Below are positions 1 to 7,847 of a DNA stretch of 64,000 bases, piece after piece. Within the stretch, counting starts at the first letter, position 1; every line of letters begins with the position of its first letter. The notes below the pieces were generated by a model that saw only the letters and a program-made list of their open reading frames with translations, did not search any database and had not been told where the DNA came from. This DNA comes from Balneolaceae bacterium (GTDB lineage Bacteria > Bacteroidota > Rhodothermia > Balneolales > Balneolaceae). The stretch is taken from contig JAFIES010000146.1 of assembly GCA_020832415.1 (NCBI GenBank), positions 1 to 64,000 of the forward strand, written 5' to 3'. A program made the translations under genes and the position numbers.

Positions 1-396
1 GGAGCAATAGAAGACTACACAAAAGCTATAGAGCTAGATCCTCAGTATAAAGAAGCGTACGATTCACGAGGCTGGCATAAGCATCTATTGAGTGACTACA
101 GAGGAGCGATAGTAGACTATACTAAAGCGATAGAGATAGATCCTGAGTCTAAAATGTCTTTAGGTATATACTCAAGAAGAGCATTATCAAAAGAGCGACT
201 TGATGACTACAGAGGGGCAATTGCAGACTATAATAAGATTATAGAAATAAATCCTCAAAATATTAGAGGATACTACAATAGAGGTTGGGCAAAGCTTGAA
301 CTAGGCGACATACATGGAGGATGTTTAGACTGGAGTAAAGCTGGAGAACTAGGGGATTTTGATGCTTATGAAATGATTCGAAAGTACTGCAATTAG
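1..396 (+). CDS. TPR repeat protein, 5' end outside window
   Basis: The reading frame is open from base 1 to a TAG stop, so the gene begins upstream. The visible 131 residues are tandem tetratricopeptide repeats of about 34 residues. The recurring core is DYRGAI-DY-KAIEIDP, followed by YYNRGWAKLELGD. TPR solenoids are protein-interaction scaffolds, and nothing here points to a partner or substrate. The repeats are so alike (DYRGAI occurs twice, DYTKAIE twice) that the array has probably expanded recently. A TTG at 88 could start a shorter product, but the repeats continue in frame upstream of it, so the true start is off the window. The family call is secure; the role is unknown. Confidence 0.85.
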   Translation, partial: GAIEDYTKAIELDPQYKEAYDSRGWHKHLLSDYRGAIVDYTKAIEIDPESKMSLGIYSRRALSKERLDDYRGAIADYNKIIEINPQNIRGYYNRGWAKLELGDIHGGCLDWSKAGELGDFDAYEMIRKYCN

Positions 397-501
397 AAGT
401 AACAAAATTTACCTACTTCTATAAACTTTACATTTCAGAAGTAGAAAAGGTACAATAGCTGTCATAAAAGAAAGAACACATTTAAGTTCTATAGTGAACT
501 A

Positions 502-1026
502 ATGAAATACTACCTCAAAGACATATTGCCACGTCTTAAAAAGCACAGTGCTTCACTGGATCAGTCTGCTTTTCTGGTGGATAAACCCTGGGTAGTCAAT
601 AACACAGATGGTAAATTTGAAAAGCTGATTTTCAAAAGAAATGGAAGTGTAATTCTTTCCATAAATGGTGATGTAACAATAGGTAAATGGGAATACCTAC
701 CCGAAGCACAGTCACTATTGATAGATTACGGGAATAAAAAGAAACTGTACCGGCACCAATATTTAGATGAAGCTGTATTGGCTTTAAAAATTGATGGATT
801 GGATAAGAATGATGATAGTTATTACCTCCTTGCAAATGAAAATGTCGTAAAAGATCATAATGCAAAAAGATATCTTATTAGCAGGTTTAAAGAGCCTTAT
901 AAACAATTAATCAGCAAGCCGACAACTAAAGAAATTGAAGAAAATTTTAACTTTGCCATCGGATTAATAGTAATTGCAGGGATAGTAATTTTAATATTTC
1001 TGATGTCTTATATTTTTACAATATAA
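502..1026 (+). CDS. Hypothetical protein with C-terminal membrane anchor
   Basis: This 174-residue protein belongs to no family I recognise. Residues 1-145 are polar and rich in Lys and Asp. Residues ~150-172 form one strongly hydrophobic segment (FAIGLIVIAGIVILIFLM) ending two residues before the stop. It therefore looks tail-anchored, with most of the protein probably cytoplasmic. A short beta-like stretch (GSVILSINGDVTIGKWEYL) lies near residues 49-67. It sits between the TPR gene and a bidirectional terminator inside the accessory region, so it is probably cargo of the mobile island. It begins with ATG after an AT-rich leader that has no obvious ribosome binding site. Confidence 0.6.
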   Translation: MKYYLKDILPRLKKHSASLDQSAFLVDKPWVVNNTDGKFEKLIFKRNGSVILSINGDVTIGKWEYLPEAQSLLIDYGNKKKLYRHQYLDEAVLALKIDGLDKNDDSYYLLANENVVKDHNAKRYLISRFKEPYKQLISKPTTKEIEENFNFAIGLIVIAGIVILIFLMSYIFTI

Positions 1027-1032
1027 AAGTTA

Positions 1033-1057
1033 AAAAGAGGGCATTATGCCCTCTTTT
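1033..1057. terminator. Bidirectional intrinsic terminator
   Basis: A near-perfect 12-bp inverted repeat (AAAAGAGGGCAT / ATGCCCTCTTTT) lies between two convergent stop codons. It has T-rich sequence on both strands. It would end the plus-strand gene at 1026 and the minus-strand operon ending at 1059. Confidence 0.85.
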
Positions 1058-1058
1058 A

Positions 1059-1784
1059 TTATATACCATTCATTTCAGGAACTGCTTTTCTTACCTGATT
1101 AGAATGAGCATCATTTTGCCCTTCCAGCCACTGTTTAATCTGCTGGCCGGTTTGCTCAGTGATCTGGAAGATTTTATCCTTGAACAACTGAGTTCGGTCT
1201 TTTGATGCTTGTGCTTCATGTGACATAGATAAATCCAGTACACAACTGAACTCATATTCAACTCCATCGCGCATAATAGGTGCCATGCCGACCTTTTGAG
1301 GAACATGTTTTCCTTTTTCGTTTTCCTGTAAGACATACTCCATTTTTGAGCGCATACAGACGATCACATGGATCTTGGAAAACAGAATAGCCCGGAGCAT
1401 AAGTTTGTAATGTTCATTGGCCGTATTCCAGTTGGCGAAAGAGTTTCCACCACGTTTGTCCAGTGAGTTTTTATACTCCAGTACGCCATCCCAAAAGTGA
1501 GAGGCTGAATCAACAATGAGTACTTCGTAATCTCCATTCAGAACATATTTGGTTAGGTTGACCAGTTTACTGATTTCAAATGGTGCTTCAACGGATGCAA
1601 CCTCAAAATCGAAGTCAGAGGCATACAGGCTGCTGCTGTTGTTCTCGGTATCAATTACTGCAATTTTACCATTGGGAGTTAATCCTCTGGCTAATCTTAG
1701 TGCTGAAAAAGTTTTACCGGCACCACTGGGTCCAGTAATCGCCAGTTTAATGTGGTTTCCTTTTCTTGTTGCTTTATTAAACAT
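1059..1784 (-). CDS. Phage-type AAA ATPase (AAA_24 / Sak4-like)
   Basis: 241 residues from the ATG at 1784, giving MFNKATRKGNHIKLAITGPSG. The frame stays open to 1892, but that extension overlaps the upstream gene. Walker A is GPSGAGKT near residue 20, and the Walker B-like strand YEVLIVDSASHFWD follows near residue 86. This RecA-like core with a short C-terminal tail matches the phage nucleotide-binding protein family (AAA_24), which includes Sak4-type recombinases that help single-strand annealing. It is the last gene of a minus-strand group containing Gp157-like, DUF932 and RadC-like genes, which fits a phage recombination module. The motifs are seen, the family is established, and a role in the island's recombination is inferred. 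Confidence 0.8.
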   Translation of the reverse strand: MFNKATRKGNHIKLAITGPSGAGKTFSALRLARGLTPNGKIAVIDTENNSSSLYASDFDFEVASVEAPFEISKLVNLTKYVLNGDYEVLIVDSASHFWDGVLEYKNSLDKRGGNSFANWNTANEHYKLMLRAILFSKIHVIVCMRSKMEYVLQENEKGKHVPQKVGMAPIMRDGVEYEFSCVLDLSMSHEAQASKDRTQLFKDKIFQITEQTGQQIKQWLEGQNDAHSNQVRKAVPEMNGI

Positions 1785-1812
1785 ATTTATTCTCCGTTTA
1801 GAGTTGAGTTTG

Positions 1813-2352
1813 TCATTTAATTCGAAGGTGGGTTCCTCTTGGAAGGATTTGTGCAAACTGCATGGCATGTTCATCCCCATTAAGGATAGCATCCCGGAGG
1901 GCAGTGAGGTCTGGCTCCTTATATACCTTTACAAAGGATTCTGGCAACCGGTCAGCAGTTACATTTTCATAGAGTCTGATTGGTAGCAGGCCACCATTGC
2001 CACAGACTGTGACAGTAAACCGGCCGGTTTCTACCTTTTCCTTTCCTCTGATTTCCATATACAGTTTCAGCCTGTCTTTTAAGCTTTTAACTTTATTGCT
2101 GTAAGAGGATGAGCGCTCAGCCAATCTTTTGGATTCTTCGGCTATTTCTTCAAATTTCTGAATCAGGAAACAATAACTGTCAATTTTATCTTCTTCTTTT
2201 GCTTCATATTCATCCAGCCATTGGTCAATGGTCTCATTAATTTCTCCCTCATTTTCTATTAACAGGGATTCAAGTACATAAAAAGATTCTCCTATTCCAA
2301 AGAGTGTCTCCTTATTTGTGGTTGTATCATTTTTTTTAATAGTAGTATTCAT
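1813..2352 (-). CDS. Siphovirus Gp157-like protein
   Basis: 179 residues. The N-terminal half is acidic and helical (ENEGEINETIDQWLDEYEAK) and leads into a long predicted coiled coil (residues ~55-95, with KSLKDRLKLYMEIRGKEK). A small beta domain follows. The order of helix, 'LKDRL-LYME' and then an 'F-V-V' strand is characteristic of the siphovirus Gp157 family, which is found beside phage recombination genes. The biochemical role of Gp157 is poorly defined; a Streptococcus homologue was linked to phage resistance. It lies 28 bp upstream of the AAA ATPase start and is probably co-transcribed with it. ATG start at 2352. Confidence 0.75.
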   Translation of the reverse strand: MNTTIKKNDTTTNKETLFGIGESFYVLESLLIENEGEINETIDQWLDEYEAKEEDKIDSYCFLIQKFEEIAEESKRLAERSSSYSNKVKSLKDRLKLYMEIRGKEKVETGRFTVTVCGNGGLLPIRLYENVTADRLPESFVKVYKEPDLTALRDAILNGDEHAMQFAQILPRGTHLRIK

Positions 2353-2478
2353 GATTTTGTAATAATTGGTTTGGGTTTGTTCTTGTATAAAGAGATGTGT
2401 TATAGATGTATAGCAGAAAACTAAATAGGCTATCCGGTGGGACAGCCTATGATGGTATTCTGATATGATTGATGGTGT

Positions 2479-3228
2479 TTACAGGGCAAGCACCTTACTG
2501 ACACCAAGCTGAAATTTTGCACGTTTATCTTTTTCAACATCATGAGATATGAAATAGGTGATGTCATTTAACAGATGCCACTGAGATTGATCGGGCACAG
2601 TATCTGTTTGAGTGATCTCCTGCATTCTTCGTTTACCGAGAACAGCTTGCAGATCCTCCATCAGCTTTTGATCAACAGGAATATCCTGCATGTGGTTAAT
2701 CCTCTGCTGTACCTTGTGTATATTATCTGAAGCTTTTCCGAAATGAGTGTAAATATCCTCAAAATCAAAGCCTTTGGTATGACGGCTGTAAAAACTGCCA
2801 AGTAGATTGCCAAAGACCATTCCATTAGTGCAAATGGATCTGATTGCTCCCCAGAATAAGCGAATACCCTCACTTTGGTCATATGAATTGTGTAAAAATA
2901 AGGAGAGTGCTATATCTGACTCCTGATCTTTTAAAAGGATGTCGGGAAATGTGATCTGCAACCTCATGCGGTTGATTTGGCAGAATGAATGGCTGCTGTC
3001 AATTTTCCATCGTACTCCAAGTTTGCTAACCTGCTCCATGAAAGGTTCGATGATTTCCTTATTTGGAACCAGTTTATAAGATTTTTTGACAACGGATATC
3101 ACCTTATCTGATGATCCATTAGGTGCTACAATGGCTTTGTAGCCATTAATGGCATCTGTCCATGGTGCATCATTAATTAGTGCTATATCCTGTTCTTTTA
3201 CGGGAAAGTAAAACTGTTCAATATTCAT
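2479..3228 (-). CDS. DUF932 phage/plasmid-like protein
   Basis: 249 residues resembling the DUF932 family (TIGR03299-like) common on phages, plasmids and integrative elements. Supporting features are the N-terminal WTDAINGYKAIVAPNGSSDK and VVKKSYKLVPN segments, a central ITFPDILLKD, and the conserved RLFWGAIRSICTNGM core near residues 122-136 followed by a helical C-terminus. The function is not established. It is in the same orientation as its neighbours, 126 bp upstream of the Gp157-like gene and 12 bp downstream of a small hypothetical gene. ATG start at 3228. The family call rests on visual recognition of the 'GAIRSICTNGM' core. Confidence 0.75.
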   Translation of the reverse strand: MNIEQFYFPVKEQDIALINDAPWTDAINGYKAIVAPNGSSDKVISVVKKSYKLVPNKEIIEPFMEQVSKLGVRWKIDSSHSFCQINRMRLQITFPDILLKDQESDIALSLFLHNSYDQSEGIRLFWGAIRSICTNGMVFGNLLGSFYSRHTKGFDFEDIYTHFGKASDNIHKVQQRINHMQDIPVDQKLMEDLQAVLGKRRMQEITQTDTVPDQSQWHLLNDITYFISHDVEKDKRAKFQLGVSKVLAL

Positions 3229-3240
3229 TGGTTGTATGTT

Positions 3241-3489
3241 TTAAGGTTTGTATTGAATGTGGAAGTAGTGATGTGGCAGCTTGAGTCCGTCAATCAGATA
3301 GAGAAGTGCGTGAGTTTCATTATGGTCAATGCCATGAATGAGTACCTGATCACCAATTTTGTATCCTGCAATTTCTGCAATACAGCTTGCCGGTATGGGG
3401 CAGTAAAAGCGGATAAGTTGATTGGTGGATGTAGAGACTAACAGGCTGTTGGTGGGCAGTTTATCCAGTGCTTGTATCCATTGGCTCAT
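3241..3489 (-). CDS. Small hypothetical protein in island operon
   Basis: 82 residues with an ATG start. I recognise no family. The composition alternates hydrophobic and polar residues (LLVSTSTNQLIRFYCPIP, YKIGDQVLIHGID), consistent with a small beta-barrel or OB-like fold, but I see no catalytic motif. It is packed between the RadC-like gene (15 bp upstream) and the DUF932 gene (12 bp downstream), so it is very likely a real operon member. It may be a small accessory DNA-processing protein, which is inference from position only. Confidence 0.55.
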   Translation of the reverse strand: MSQWIQALDKLPTNSLLVSTSTNQLIRFYCPIPASCIAEIAGYKIGDQVLIHGIDHNETHALLYLIDGLKLPHHYFHIQYKP

Positions 3490-3504
3490 GATGCATTCTG
3501 TTTA

Positions 3505-3981
3505 TTAATTAAGCAGCTTATGCTCTTTAAAAGAATAGTATCCATCCGTTGTCAGGATCAGGTGATCTCTTAAATGAATGCCAATGTTATCCAAGGCATC
3601 AGATATGCGCCTTGTTAACCTGATATCTGCTGAAGAAGCTTTTAAATATCCTGAAGGATGATTATGAGCCAGTAAAATGGAATGAGCATTACTTAAAACA
3701 GCTACACATAGTACATGTGAAATATCTACGATGGTGGCCGTTTTTCCTCCCTTGCTCACTTTATAAAATCCCAGTACGTTGAGAGCGTTGTTCAGCAGGA
3801 CAACAAAGAATTCTTCTTGCAGCTCGAATATTTCTTTATCCCAAATACTCATTAGATACTCATATGCGGAATCAGGGCTGTTTATCACAGGTACTGAGGA
3901 CGGTTGACTTTTTGTTTTATAAATCAACTTCACCTCAGCTAAATGAGGGCTTTTCACCCAGTTTTCTGGTGTATTTTTCAT
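3505..3981 (-). CDS. RadC-like JAB/MPN+ domain protein
   Basis: About 158 residues from the ATG at 3981; an in-frame GTG at 3993 would add four. It carries the full JAMM metal-binding signature: a glutamate near EEFFVVLLN, then HNHPSG near residue 112, then S-x2-D about nine residues later (ASSADIRLT). The C-terminal ILTTDGYYSFKEHKLL also matches RadC. Chromosomal RadC has an extra N-terminal helix-hairpin-helix. That region is absent here, so this is the short form typical of mobile elements. Despite the name, RadC has no confirmed DNA-repair activity. It lies 15 bp from the next gene in the minus-strand operon. Confidence 0.88.
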   Translation of the reverse strand: MKNTPENWVKSPHLAEVKLIYKTKSQPSSVPVINSPDSAYEYLMSIWDKEIFELQEEFFVVLLNNALNVLGFYKVSKGGKTATIVDISHVLCVAVLSNAHSILLAHNHPSGYLKASSADIRLTRRISDALDNIGIHLRDHLILTTDGYYSFKEHKLLN

Positions 3982-4012
3982 GATGATCTGCACATTTTTA
4001 GATTAGAAATAG

Positions 4013-4034
4013 AAAGGAGGCCGAAGCCTCCTTT
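4013..4034 (-). terminator. Hairpin after the first gene of the minus-strand group
   Basis: A 9-bp perfect stem AAAGGAGGC / GCCTCCTTT with a CGAA tetraloop starts 4 bp beyond the stop of the gene at 4039-4395. On the minus strand it is followed by TTTC-rich sequence. It may attenuate rather than end transcription into the RadC-like gene. Confidence 0.65.
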
Positions 4035-4038
4035 AGTG

Positions 4039-4395
4039 TTATACAAGTGCCGGTTTTTCAGCACCGTTTTTGCGTTCAAATACAGCATCTTCCATGCTGT
4101 CTTCAGGCTGATATTCATACCTGTGTGACAGTGTGATGATTTCACCACTATCGATTGTGAATTCGTATTCCTCACAGTCAATTTTGACTATTATACCTGG
4201 AATTGAAGTTCCAATTAAGTTTTTGCAAACTTGCTCTGGAAACGTACTTGGAATGCTGGTTTTTCGAGATGTGAGGTAATACTTTCCTGAAATTGCAGAC
4301 TTTACAGTCTCCAACTCCCCCATAAGGATTAAGGCAAAGAATACTTCACCGTCAGAATTTTCGCGTTTGGCGTAATCAGATATTATTAATGACAT
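4039..4395 (-). CDS. Hypothetical island protein
   Basis: 118 residues, ATG start, no family recognised. The N-terminus (MSLIISDYAKRENSDGEVFF) and middle (KYYLTSRKTSIPSTF) suggest a soluble mixed alpha/beta protein, with a beta-rich second half containing CEEYEFTIDSGEIITLSHRYEY. I see no signal peptide or membrane segment. It is the first gene of the minus-strand operon and is followed directly by a strong hairpin, so it may be expressed at a higher level than the genes downstream. In related mobile elements this position often holds small proteins of unknown function. Confidence 0.55.
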   Translation of the reverse strand: MSLIISDYAKRENSDGEVFFALILMGELETVKSAISGKYYLTSRKTSIPSTFPEQVCKNLIGTSIPGIIVKIDCEEYEFTIDSGEIITLSHRYEYQPEDSMEDAVFERKNGAEKPALV

Positions 4396-5063
4396 AATTA
4401 TTGGATTTAGTTATTGGTTTAGATTGAGTTCGAGAGCTTTCTTAGCCCGCAATAGAAATGGGGTCTTTGATACATAAAAGCATTCGAAGATGGCGTGATT
4501 CAAAAGCACCGGGGTACTAAAAAATCATCCAATCCATAGCGGGTGTAAATTGATATGGTCTGCGATCTTATAAAGAGAGCAGATATGGAGGCAGCTGATT
4601 GTTTTCTTTTAATAGCAGAAGGGCCGGGGGTTTCTGCTATATATGTAAAAGAGGGGGGGGGTATTTTGGATTTTAAAAGAACCCGATTAAACGTATAGAC
4701 TGAAAAATTTTAGAAAAAAATTTAAAGTGATATATACTCTAATATTTCAATTTGATTTGAATCTAAAAATGAGTTAATTTTGGGATATGCATATACATTT
4801 CCGTATTTATTGAAACAATAAGTTCTAAATGAATACGTTATGTGCATCTCTCTTGACAAAAAATGATAGAAAAAATAAAAGAATTTAATAATTAATAAAG
4901 AGAAGAGAGACTAAACAAAAATGCATCAGCAATTTGATTGCAATGTAATTTTTGAAGTCAGGAAAATTGATAAAAGATCTGAAATTACTAAACAAACTAA
5001 ATAAAGCACTTCTTTAAATCATTGATATCATTTTTGTTGGTGTGAAATTATAATCAACAAAAA
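4396..5063. other. Divergent intergenic control region of the island
   Basis: This AT-rich 668-bp region separates the minus-strand operon from the plus-strand excisionase gene, so it should hold both promoters. It contains a hairpin at 4612-4640, a run of nine G at 4653-4661 and a TTGACA-like box near 4854 followed by a very A-rich stretch. A 27-codon ATG frame at 4921-5004 is the only small reading frame I noticed, and I do not call it a gene. No tRNA or known riboswitch is visible. Confidence 0.6.
4612..4640. repeat. Inverted repeat with G-rich loop
   Basis: A perfect 9-bp inverted repeat ATAGCAGAA / TTCTGCTAT encloses an 11-nt G/C-rich loop (GGGCCGGGGGT). The run of nine G follows 12 bp downstream. 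It may be a regulatory hairpin or an operator. Confidence 0.5.
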
Positions 5064-5258
5064 ATGAACAATTCAATAAAAAAGTGGCTTCGAACAGATG
5101 AAGTCGCAGAATACCTGAACTTGTCAAAAACACAGGTTCATGTTCTGAAAAATTCAGGGCAGCTTCCATTCACCAAGCTTGGGGGTACGCTATTCTTTGA
5201 TAAAAATGATATCGATAGTATCCTCCAGCAAAATAAGGTGGGAGGTGTCGATGAGTAG
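5064..5258 (+). CDS. Excisionase-family HTH DNA-binding protein
   Basis: 64 residues forming one winged helix-turn-helix of the excisionase/MerR-like type (HTH_17). LRTDEVAEYLNLSKTQVHVL is the HTH, LPFTKLGGTLFF is the wing, and DKNDIDSILQQ is the closing helix. Such proteins bend DNA at attachment sites to direct excision, or act as small regulators. The stop codon overlaps the ATG of the following DUF3987 gene (ATGAGTAG), so the two are translationally coupled. Its position beside a primase-like gene and near an ssrA-type attachment scar supports an excision or replication-control role. No integrase gene is visible in the window. Confidence 0.85.
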   Translation: MNNSIKKWLRTDEVAEYLNLSKTQVHVLKNSGQLPFTKLGGTLFFDKNDIDSILQQNKVGGVDE

Positions 5259-6453
5259 CGAACAAATCATTGATGAATTTCCGGTCGATATATTTCCCGG
5301 CTGGATTCAGAACTACATTAACGAACACCACGATAAATCAGGCTGGTCTAAGGATGTGACTGCCATTGGTGTTTTAGCGGCCCTCTCAGCTGCCGCAGGA
5401 TCAAATAAAGTATTCGATTGGCAATTTAATCAGCCAACACCTGCGATTTTGTGGCTATGTGTAGTTGGATCTCCCGGGTCAAATAAAACTCATCCGGTTG
5501 AGGCAGCTCTTGAGCCTATAAATGAGAAAGATGTAGAGTTGCACCAAGAATGTATGAATGCATTAAACGCCTATAACAAGCACAAAAATGACAAAAGTGA
5601 AGGTAATAAAGAACGGATTCCAAAACCTGCACTTTCTCAGATTTTAATTCGTGATACCACATCTGAGGCATTAGTAAAAGCATTGCAAAAAAATCCGTCT
5701 GGAATCTTAATATGGAGGGATGAACTGGCCGGATGGTTCAATGATATGAACCGTTATTCCAATGGCGGTGACGAACAATTTTATTTGCAGTTATTTAACG
5801 GTAATACCATCACTGTTAACAGAAAAGGAGAGGATATACCAACACGGGTAGATAAACCTGTTGCTTCCTTAATAGGTACTATTCAGCCTGGAGTGTTAAA
5901 ACAGCTAACAAAATATAAAAACCTGATCGATTCAGGAACGTTAGACCGTTTCTTATTTGCTTTTTCGGATACGAAAATGCAGTCATTTACAATGGAAGTA
6001 ATGAAAGAAGATACAGTCCTGGAATATAAACACAACATAAAACGTATCTTGGCGGTAAGGTCAAAACCAATAACATATATTTTGACCCGTGACGCCAAAA
6101 CAGAGCTGATTAATTTCAGCGAATATTTAATGAGAAGATATGAATTAACTGTTATGGATTATGAAAAGGCGATATATGCAAAATTGATGACATATACTCA
6201 TCGAATACCACAGCTTTTACAGTTAGCCCATGATTTTGGACAGACTGAAAATAATACAGTTGAAATAAATAAGTCGATTATAGAAAAAATGTGCAGATTA
6301 CTTCGGTTTTTCGAATATAATGCATTTCGTGCCCGAAGATTAATCTTTTCTGAAGGTAAATTAGGTCAGTTGGATCGGAGACAGGAAAAATTCTATAAAG
6401 CCTTACCATCGGATTCATTTAAATTTAGTGAGGCCATGTCGATTGCATCATAA
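5251..6453 (+). CDS. DUF3987 primase/helicase-like protein, cut by in-frame stop
   Basis: 400 residues from the ATG at 5251, chosen because it overlaps the excisionase stop and gives MSSEQIIDEFPVDIFPGWIQ. The family is DUF3987, a RecA-fold NTPase found in phages and integrative elements and thought to act in replication. Seen here: a P-loop-like VGSPGSNKTHPVEAAL near residues 71-86, a Walker B-like ILIWRDELAGWFNDMNRYSNG near residue 155, and LIGTIQPGVLKQL near residue 207. The frame ends at TAA inside a C-terminal helix-turn-helix, and the same frame continues sensibly to 6561. The gene is thus truncated by about 36 residues, but the ATPase domain is complete. Confidence 0.85.
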   Translation: MSSEQIIDEFPVDIFPGWIQNYINEHHDKSGWSKDVTAIGVLAALSAAAGSNKVFDWQFNQPTPAILWLCVVGSPGSNKTHPVEAALEPINEKDVELHQECMNALNAYNKHKNDKSEGNKERIPKPALSQILIRDTTSEALVKALQKNPSGILIWRDELAGWFNDMNRYSNGGDEQFYLQLFNGNTITVNRKGEDIPTRVDKPVASLIGTIQPGVLKQLTKYKNLIDSGTLDRFLFAFSDTKMQSFTMEVMKEDTVLEYKHNIKRILAVRSKPITYILTRDAKTELINFSEYLMRRYELTVMDYEKAIYAKLMTYTHRIPQLLQLAHDFGQTENNTVEINKSIIEKMCRLLRFFEYNAFRARRLIFSEGKLGQLDRRQEKFYKALPSDSFKFSEAMSIAS

Positions 6454-6561
6454 TTAAATATTTCTGAAAGTACCGCAGGAAAATGGTTAACAGAGAATAG
6501 AGACTTTAGCCCATTTATAAAAAAAGAGAGGCATGGAGTATATAGGAAGGTGGTGATATAG
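6454..6561 (+). pseudogene. Detached C-terminal tail of the DUF3987 protein
   Basis: In frame after the TAA at 6451-6453, this 35-codon stretch reads LNISESTAGKWLTENRDF and continues to a TAG at 6559-6561. Joined to the preceding EAMSIAS it makes a normal helix-turn-helix that would close the DUF3987 protein. One base change (for example GAA to TAA) explains the break. Confidence 0.75.
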
Positions 6562-6879
6562 GAGATATTGGGGAATAGCACTAAAATTTGATATAAAATG
6601 CTATTTGGAGGTTCTGTAACTATAAAATCTAAAAAGCAGAATCCCCATTGTTTCCCCATACTATAATTGAAATAGACGTCTTTTTAAACTCAACAGGCCG
6701 ATTTCACCAAAATCCCCAAAATCTCATGCCTTAAATAAATCTGATAAACCGGTAGATTTTTTGTAATCTATAACCAAGATCAATGGGTCAGGTGAACTAT
6801 ACGGTGACCTGTTTACAGAATGTGTCCAAAAAAACACTTATATGATGCATAAAAGGCGATTATTGGAAGTGCGGTTGTT

Positions 6880-6893
6880 CCCCGCACCTCCAC
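6880..6893 (+). repeat. tmRNA-like 3' end, copy 1 (att-like core)
   Basis: The 14-nt core CCCCGCACCTCCAC resembles the acceptor strand and T-arm edge of a tmRNA 3' end. It is preceded by GTGCGG-TTGTTCC, so a short T-arm-like hairpin can form. A terminator starts 7 bp later. Confidence 0.6.
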
Positions 6894-6900
6894 AAACTCA

Positions 6901-6937
6901 AAGCCCCGCAAGGATAATAGTCTTTTCGGGGCTTTTT
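6901..6937 (+). terminator. Terminator after tmRNA-like end, copy 1
   Basis: The 8-bp stem AAGCCCCG / CGGGGCTT is followed by a T run. It stands 7 bp downstream of the copy-1 core, as a native tmRNA terminator would. Confidence 0.8.
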
Positions 6938-6977
6938 CTTTCGATGCTACTGAGGCAGTTAAAGAGCTGTTCACTTG

Positions 6978-7016
6978 CGAAGCAGTGCTTCGCGGTTCAA
7001 CTCCCCGCACCTCCAC
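6978..7016 (+). repeat. tmRNA-like 3' end, copy 2 (att-like core)
   Basis: This copy is the most tRNA-like. A CGAAGCAGTGCTTCG hairpin (6978-6992) is followed by a canonical T-loop TTCAACT and the 14-nt core at 7003-7016. The five bases on each side of the T-loop pair with one mismatch. The core is followed by AAA rather than a CCA tail. Confidence 0.65.
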
Positions 7017-7027
7017 AAAATATTTAG

Positions 7028-7059
7028 CACCAAGGAATTAGTTTTTCTTGGTGTTTTTT
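7028..7059 (+). terminator. Terminator after tmRNA-like end, copy 2
   Basis: The stem CACCAAG / CTTGGTG is followed by a run of T and lies 11 bp after the copy-2 core. Confidence 0.75.
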
Positions 7060-7104
7060 ATTTTTAGGATACTGTTCATTTAAAACGATCTTGCCATTGC
7101 ATTC

Positions 7105-7134
7105 CGAAGCAGTGCTTCGGCCCCGCACCTCCAC
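7105..7134 (+). repeat. tmRNA-like 3' end, copy 3 (att-like core)
   Basis: The same CGAAGCAGTGCTTCG hairpin (7105-7119) joins directly to the 14-nt core at 7121-7134, as if the TTCAACT stretch of copy 2 had been deleted. It is the only copy followed by CA, restoring a CCA-like end. As the outermost copy it may be the original chromosomal end. Confidence 0.6.
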
Positions 7135-7142
7135 CATTATTT

Positions 7143-7180
7143 AAGCCCTGTGATGATATTATACTTCACAGGGCTTTTTT
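7143..7180 (+). terminator. Terminator after tmRNA-like end, copy 3
   Basis: The 11-bp stem AAGCCCTGTGA / TCACAGGGCTT is followed by six T. It begins 8 bp after the copy-3 core. Confidence 0.85.
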
Positions 7181-7373
7181 CTTTTTGAACAGCATTTTGT
7201 TTGAATAATGAAAAGGATGTTGTAATCAGTTTCATCACATAACGGGTCTTTTTTCTGTGTTTCATATAGTAAAAATCATATGGTTCATTACGACCAATTG
7301 AGTAAAGTTGAATCTATCCTATTTTTAATTTACATTACATGTAAATACAAGTAACAACAAATAGGTGAATTTT

Positions 7374-7847
7374 ATGAAATATGCTTTAACTGGTATCTCA
7401 AGTGCAATTATTGGCGGCTTGATCGTTGGAATCGTTGGTTTTTACAGTCTTCCCGGTTTAATGATGCTTGAAGACGAATCGATGTACGACTTTGAAACAA
7501 CAATTGAAGTTCTTGACAGAGAATTAGAAAGTGCAGGATGGAGTGTTTTAACCGTGCATGATATGAAGGAGACACTTGCAGGCCATGGACACGATGTTCT
7601 GAACGTAAAGATCTATGAACTATGCTCATCCAAATATTCAGCTGAAATCCTGGTATTGGACGATGAGCGAATTGTCTCACCCATGATGCCATGCCGTGTT
7701 GCGATCTATGAGAAAAGTGACGGAAATACGTATATAGCCCGAATGGACTCTGAGCTGTTAGCTAAACCCTTTGGAGGAGTTATTAACGAAGTAATGCAAA
7801 CTGCTGCGTCTGAAATTGAAGACGTTCTTGTAAAACTCGTGAAATAA
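7374..7847 (+). CDS. DUF302 domain protein, membrane-anchored
   Basis: 157 residues from the ATG at 7374. An in-frame GTG at 7365 lies inside the AGGTGA that best serves as the ribosome binding site, so I prefer the ATG. Residues ~3-25 form a signal anchor (ALTGISSAIIGGLIVGIVGFYSL). The rest is a DUF302 domain: the strand-helix region TTIEVLDRELESAGWSVLTVHDM, then KIYELCSSKYSAEIL, then the conserved Pro-Cys-Arg (MMPCRVAIYEK) and a C-terminal helix. DUF302 is a small alpha/beta fold of unknown function. It is the first clearly chromosomal gene right of the island border, and a hairpin follows it. Confidence 0.85.
   Translation: MKYALTGISSAIIGGLIVGIVGFYSLPGLMMLEDESMYDFETTIEVLDRELESAGWSVLTVHDMKETLAGHGHDVLNVKIYELCSSKYSAEILVLDDERIVSPMMPCRVAIYEKSDGNTYIARMDSELLAKPFGGVINEVMQTAASEIEDVLVKLVK

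Follow-up and report, generated by a model that had tools for sequence, protein, structure and literature searches.

tRNA genes serve as docking sites for phages and genomic islands, which enter them through integrases. In E. coli, tandem repeats are located behind tyrT, each containing the tRNA 3' end (rtT, Rfam RF00391). In fungal mitochondria, mobile open reading frames (mORFs) form gene hybrids with atp6 in Allomyces and with atp6, atp9, cox2 and nad3 in Glomus (PMC3630166). SegB of phages T4/T6 is a free-standing GIY-YIG homing endonuclease whose gene adjoins tRNA genes, and it drives tandem amplification (PMC13096335). REP palindromes, which occur with RAYT transposases, carry a GTAG or CGTC tag (PMC3733652).

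The locus described here, behind the tmRNA gene ssrA of a Balneolaceae bacterium (genome G000), probably combines two layers: an integrase island on the inside and, outside it, older ORF-less units of an element that homes into tRNA and tmRNA gene ends. The element resembles mORFs in that an endonuclease ORF lies beside the host gene and a copy carried by the element takes the place of the gene end, while the native end is displaced downstream (PMC3630166). It differs from them in its bacterial tRNA and tmRNA hosts and in its tiny, arrayed, palindrome-marked units, with ORF-less members of ~120 bp. With SegB it shares a GIY-YIG enzyme adjoining tRNA genes, but here the units are chromosomal, have many tRNA targets, replace gene ends and include ORF-less forms. 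Tyrosine-integrase islands at ssrA match only the innermost of three ssrA-like ends (core 1) with an integrase behind ssrA, and leave the other two (cores 2 and 3) unexplained.

The window (the whole stretch of 64,000 nucleotides analysed) contains three exact copies of the core CCCCGCACCTCCAC on the + strand, at 6880, 7003 and 7121, and no other site when up to two mismatches are allowed. This is well above chance (0.20 matches expected per window; three copies reached in 0 of 100 shuffles). Folding gives a different terminator-like stem with a T-run behind every core. The features are as follows.

1–6879, no strand assigned: distal part of the ssrA-integrated island, with AAA_24, Gp157, DUF932, RadC, HTH_17 and DUF3987 genes (Pfam matches; the integrase end is on contig C68 behind ssrA)
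6880–6893, + strand: core 1, distal island junction (attR-like), the ssrA end before arrival of the island (palindrome-free left flank GCGGTTGTT; empty-site construct)
6900–6940, + strand: terminator of unit 1, a native-type ssrA trailer (fold; ssrA is directly followed by similar trailers in L133, L134 and L059)
6977–6993, + strand: palindrome of unit 1, GCGAAGCAGTGCTTCGC, preceding core 2 (stem co-variation across 21 variants)
6994–7016, + strand: duplicated ssrA 3' end with T-loop, composed of GGTTCAACT, which follows GCGAAGCAGTGCTTCGC, and core 2 (same sequence as the end of the functional ssrA on C68)
7027–7063, + strand: terminator of unit 2 (fold)
7104–7120, + strand: palindrome of unit 2, CCGAAGCAGTGCTTCGG, running straight into core 3 (sequence, stem co-variation)
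7121–7134, + strand: core 3, outermost duplicated ssrA 3' end (exact core match)
7143–7180, + strand: terminator behind core 3 (fold)
7365–7847, + strand: DUF302 gene, the first chromosomal gene after ssrA and the units (Pfam; ortholog directly behind ssrA in G053, G057 and G048)

The anatomy reported by the first-pass annotation is thus borne out: three cores at these positions, a separate terminator for each, a T-loop TTCAACT at copy 2 (6996–7002, directly 5' of core 2) and a hairpin common to copies 2 and 3, which corresponds to the two palindromes. No complete tRNA or tmRNA was found around the three cores by ARAGORN or Rfam.

Outside the window, the genome contains one further exact core copy, the true 3' end of ssrA on contig C68. 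The gene begins on contig C23 and runs off the contig end; the reverse complement of C68 opens with the same 15 nt as the end of C23, completing ssrA. Joining of the two contigs over this overlap gives a full tmRNA with the tag DNNYSYRLAA and the gene end ...GGGGTTCAACTCCCCGCACCTCCACCA. The cores, which had been taken for tmRNA-like 3' ends, therefore represent the 3' end of the ssrA gene of G000 itself. Core matches in G062 (contig C46) and G038 (C5:109461) have no tmRNA context and were set aside as chance matches.

Directly behind ssrA on C68 lies a tyrosine integrase gene (Arm-DNA-bind_5, Phage_int_SAM_5 and Phage_integrase domains, Pfam), adjacent to the attachment gene as in integrase islands. 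Also as in such islands, the core is directly repeated at both ends and the host ssrA is restored. The island contigs are not joined in the assembly, and the window covers the distal part alone. The comparison with relatives lacking the island, proposed with the original reading, is provided by a genome of the same genus (G053), where the site is empty and ssrA is joined directly to the right flank of the window. On one G053 contig, the large gene that also precedes ssrA in G000 is followed by ssrA itself, by three units, of which some are degenerate, and by the DUF302 gene; the counterpart of the 8003–8641 gene, a transglycosylase and CorA come next, as in the window. A construct of the ssrA core and the window from 6894 onwards is collinear with this locus (G053/L059) at 81.7% identity over 2955 bp, an alignment that spans ssrA and the units. 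In other genera, related integrases (37–46% identity) are found directly behind ssrA, and in several of these genomes a second core is located 12–29 kb from the ssrA-linked integrase. Most left flanks of these distal cores end much like that of core 1, without a palindrome. Since the flank of core 1 resembles these distal junctions and likewise lacks the palindrome, the left 6.9 kb of the window is assigned to the distal part of the island. The integrase-bearing island in ssrA has its far junction at core 1.

The three ends had been interpreted as a record of serial insertion into ssrA. For core 1 this interpretation stands, given the integrase, the empty site and the junction flank; for cores 2 and 3 it does not. 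Between 6894 and 7120 the window holds two ORF-less units of ~120 bp, each comprising an RNA 3' end, a terminator, a spacer of ~80 nt and a palindrome (GCGAAGCAGTGCTTCGC in unit 1), followed by the next 3' end. One to three such units occur behind ssrA in many Balneolaceae genomes, with no integrase in the stretches analysed, and the outer copies decay. At least seven tRNA genes of this genome have the same palindrome units behind them; therefore cores 2 and 3 are not island scars but the ends of hairpin-marked units. Earlier integrations of the same kind as that at core 1 are further contradicted by the island junctions of other genera, which lack the palindrome. As in gene-hybrid elements, a duplicated host gene end accompanies an intact host gene at cores 2 and 3. 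Unlike such elements, the window's ssrA units contain no endonuclease ORF, and no ssrA was found with a GIY-YIG gene behind it.

Other arrangements occur behind ssrA. Two different unit arrays were found in one binned genome (L049 and L050, G063 contigs C9 and C75), which suggests strain-level array variation. In L061 (G048:C193) a different repeat, AACATGGTATGTCTGTTC and its inverse, occupies the place of the hairpin units. In L046, L048 and L052 a double mini-palindrome lies inside the T-loop of displaced ssrA ends, as in the GIY-YIG units of tRNA-Ser.

In G000 the palindrome is found behind the genes for tRNA-Met, tRNA-Arg(tct) (two genes), tRNA-Arg(tcg), tRNA-Ala, tRNA-Asp, tRNA-Pro(ggg) and tRNA-Pro(tgg), and is followed in each case by the 3' end of that same tRNA from GGTTC on, intact or degenerate. 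A palindrome-blind scan, which took in 30 of the 36 tRNA hits of the genome, revealed seven duplicated 3' ends, distributed over six tRNA genes. A palindrome stands immediately before every one of them; it is of the family type in six cases and of a different type in the seventh, the GIY-YIG case at a tRNA-Met. The palindrome starts ~80 nt behind the RNA 3' end, whatever the spacer sequence. Its stem shows compensatory changes among 21 variants (10 double-change cells vs 3.6 in shuffles). An exact search of 84,980 species returned 30 stretches, only from Balneolaceae (named Balneolaceae, Rhodohalobacter, Fodinibius or Bacteroidetes MAG UBA2664), nearly all lying behind a gene for a tRNA or tmRNA, or behind the 3' end of one. 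In 2.9 million viral contigs the palindrome had no match, and viral spread of the palindrome was rejected. The constant GAGCGTTGATNTT before the palindrome was considered as a relic of a tRNA D-arm; it is unchanged whatever the host tRNA, which does not support this origin. By shared palindrome, spacing and architecture, the ssrA units would belong to the same element family.

Putative full-length members of this family encode GIY-YIG proteins. G000 has four small GIY-YIG genes, three of which lie right behind tRNA genes and have partial tRNA copies on the far side. The fourth (L100, G000:C142 near 128000), which has no tRNA beside it, is located amid repeated CATCTCGACTTCG / GTCAGTTCGAGCG. 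Within the family Balneolaceae 24 of 30 GIY-YIG loci, and within the phylum 27 of 30, are found no more than 600 bp from a same-strand tRNA gene; loci away from tRNA genes are mostly at contig ends. Two representative endonucleases were identified as GIY-YIG domains by Pfam. The 57 non-redundant endonucleases cluster by host tRNA (16 changes on the tree vs 36.4 shuffled, the protein tree being built on few alignment columns), as expected of target-specific homing enzymes. Among the tRNA-linked relatives the endonucleases are thus sorted by target gene, a further trait of gene-hybrid elements.

Arrays reach eight GIY-YIG units. In the Bacteroidota array census, ORF-less units are mostly 114–134 bp and GIY-YIG units mostly ~300–420 bp, and eight arrays contain both kinds. 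Comparison of the two kinds at one tRNA-Asp shows that the ORF-less unit equals the GIY-YIG unit without its ORF: the first 53 nt are identical and the end nearly so. Four 124-bp units with a GIY-YIG ORF after them stand behind tRNA-Val in the complete genome of a distant member of the Bacteroidota. Direct contact between the Balneolaceae palindrome unit and GIY-YIG units is seen at tRNA-Pro(ggg) in this genome and, in named records, at tRNA-Met. In GIY-YIG units outside Balneolaceae the palindromes differ, and so does their position (anticodon arm, T-loop).

Several arrays illustrate this diversity. L230 (G140:C34:5000-11500) contains eight tandem GIY-YIG genes at ~364-bp spacing; behind each gene comes part of a tRNA whose anticodon region holds a TCCGCCTNAGGCGGA-type palindrome, as in the single tRNA-Met unit on G000 contig C132. 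L231 (G207:C1:1383500-1387000) represents a mirror-image type, where GIY-YIG units lie upstream of an intact tRNA-Ser and displaced tRNA-Ser 5' halves are interrupted by a palindrome. L249 and L253, both in G207, contain four copies each, of 124 bp behind tRNA-Val(tac) and of 114 bp behind tRNA-Pro(tgg), respectively, with a palindrome replacing the anticodon arm in each copy.

Formation of the locus is probably explained by the following scheme. In the inner layer, a tyrosine-integrase island entered ssrA, made the gene whole again with a copied end and a terminator of its own, and pushed the older ssrA end outward to 6880. The outer, older layer would consist of two ORF-less units (6894–7120) of a family parasitising tRNA and tmRNA 3' ends. 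Full-length members are proposed to carry the gene for a small GIY-YIG endonuclease, and this enzyme to cleave the host RNA gene at the T-arm or close to it. Repair could then copy in the element along with a new end for the gene, which would keep the RNA gene intact and leave its native end displaced behind a palindrome, to which a role in the process is tentatively ascribed. The ORF-less units of ~120 bp would be deletion derivatives, and arrays could grow by further cutting and by break-driven or unequal recombination. Cleavage and mobility are deduced here from the architecture, and the ssrA units would descend from a GIY-YIG parent.

Several other explanations have to be weighed against this two-layer scheme. 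According to one, a succession of integrase islands at ssrA left all three ends as scars, and the older islands lost their interiors. An integrase island does sit at ssrA and each core has its own terminator, but the palindrome units behind many tRNA genes, on account of which serial scars were rejected at cores 2 and 3, the palindrome-free integrase junctions elsewhere and the near-constant unit length (random deletions would not repeat 114–134 bp) make this scarcely credible. Mobilisation of REP-like palindromes by RAYT/Y1 (IS200-type) transposases targeting T-loops would fit the short co-varying palindromes with 3-nt loops and the four Y1 transposase genes of this genome. None of these four genes is palindrome-flanked or near a tRNA gene, the GTAG or CGTC tag described for REPs (PMC3733652) is lacking, and duplication of tRNA ends is not a REP trait; RAYT mobilisation was accordingly rejected as very improbable.

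Another possibility is that the units are host-made tandem duplications, not selfish elements, kept for an RNA function (an rtT-like repeat RNA, a decoy or a sponge). Like the tyrT repeats of E. coli, they are tandem and carry an RNA gene 3' end each, and the hairpin covariation is compatible with RNA. Against this, terminators lie between the copies, outer copies decay, and the palindrome is common to unrelated tRNA loci and shared across many RNA genes, unlike rtT. Rfam gave weak matches only and none at gathering score, RF00391 included, for the window units; a known RNA family was rejected, and an RNA function in general is considered unlikely. Finally, GIY-YIG genes and ORF-less arrays could be unrelated and merely occupy the same hot spots behind tRNA genes, in favour of which the palindrome family and the GIY-YIG units lie at mostly different loci in G000; with eight mixed arrays and the direct ORF-deletion pair at tRNA-Asp, such a coincidence is distinctly unlikely.

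The two-layer reading of ssrA leads to a wider proposal, to which about an even chance is given: that Bacteroidota harbour a phylum-wide, undescribed class of selfish elements on tRNA and tmRNA ends, comprising target-specific GIY-YIG homing units, which would replace the end of the RNA gene, and ORF-less non-autonomous units of ~120 bp, which would have spread to ssrA and to many tRNA genes and lie in palindrome-marked arrays. The Balneolaceae palindrome family and the GIY-YIG units elsewhere may have one common origin, which is weakened by the restriction of the former to Balneolaceae and by the other palindromes and positions of the latter. No account of bacterial tRNA-linked GIY-YIG units was found in the literature searched, and within that literature, whose coverage leaves out most subscription journals, the unit layer appears undescribed.

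If the proposal is true, tandem tRNA or tmRNA ends would be unsafe evidence of past islands. A second, endonuclease-driven route to the colonisation of tRNA genes would exist, and the element would repair the essential gene that it breaks, leaving minimal non-autonomous copies. It would be a bacterial counterpart of the fungal mitochondrial mobile ORFs and would account for the abundance of small GIY-YIG genes and of tRNA fragments in Bacteroidota.
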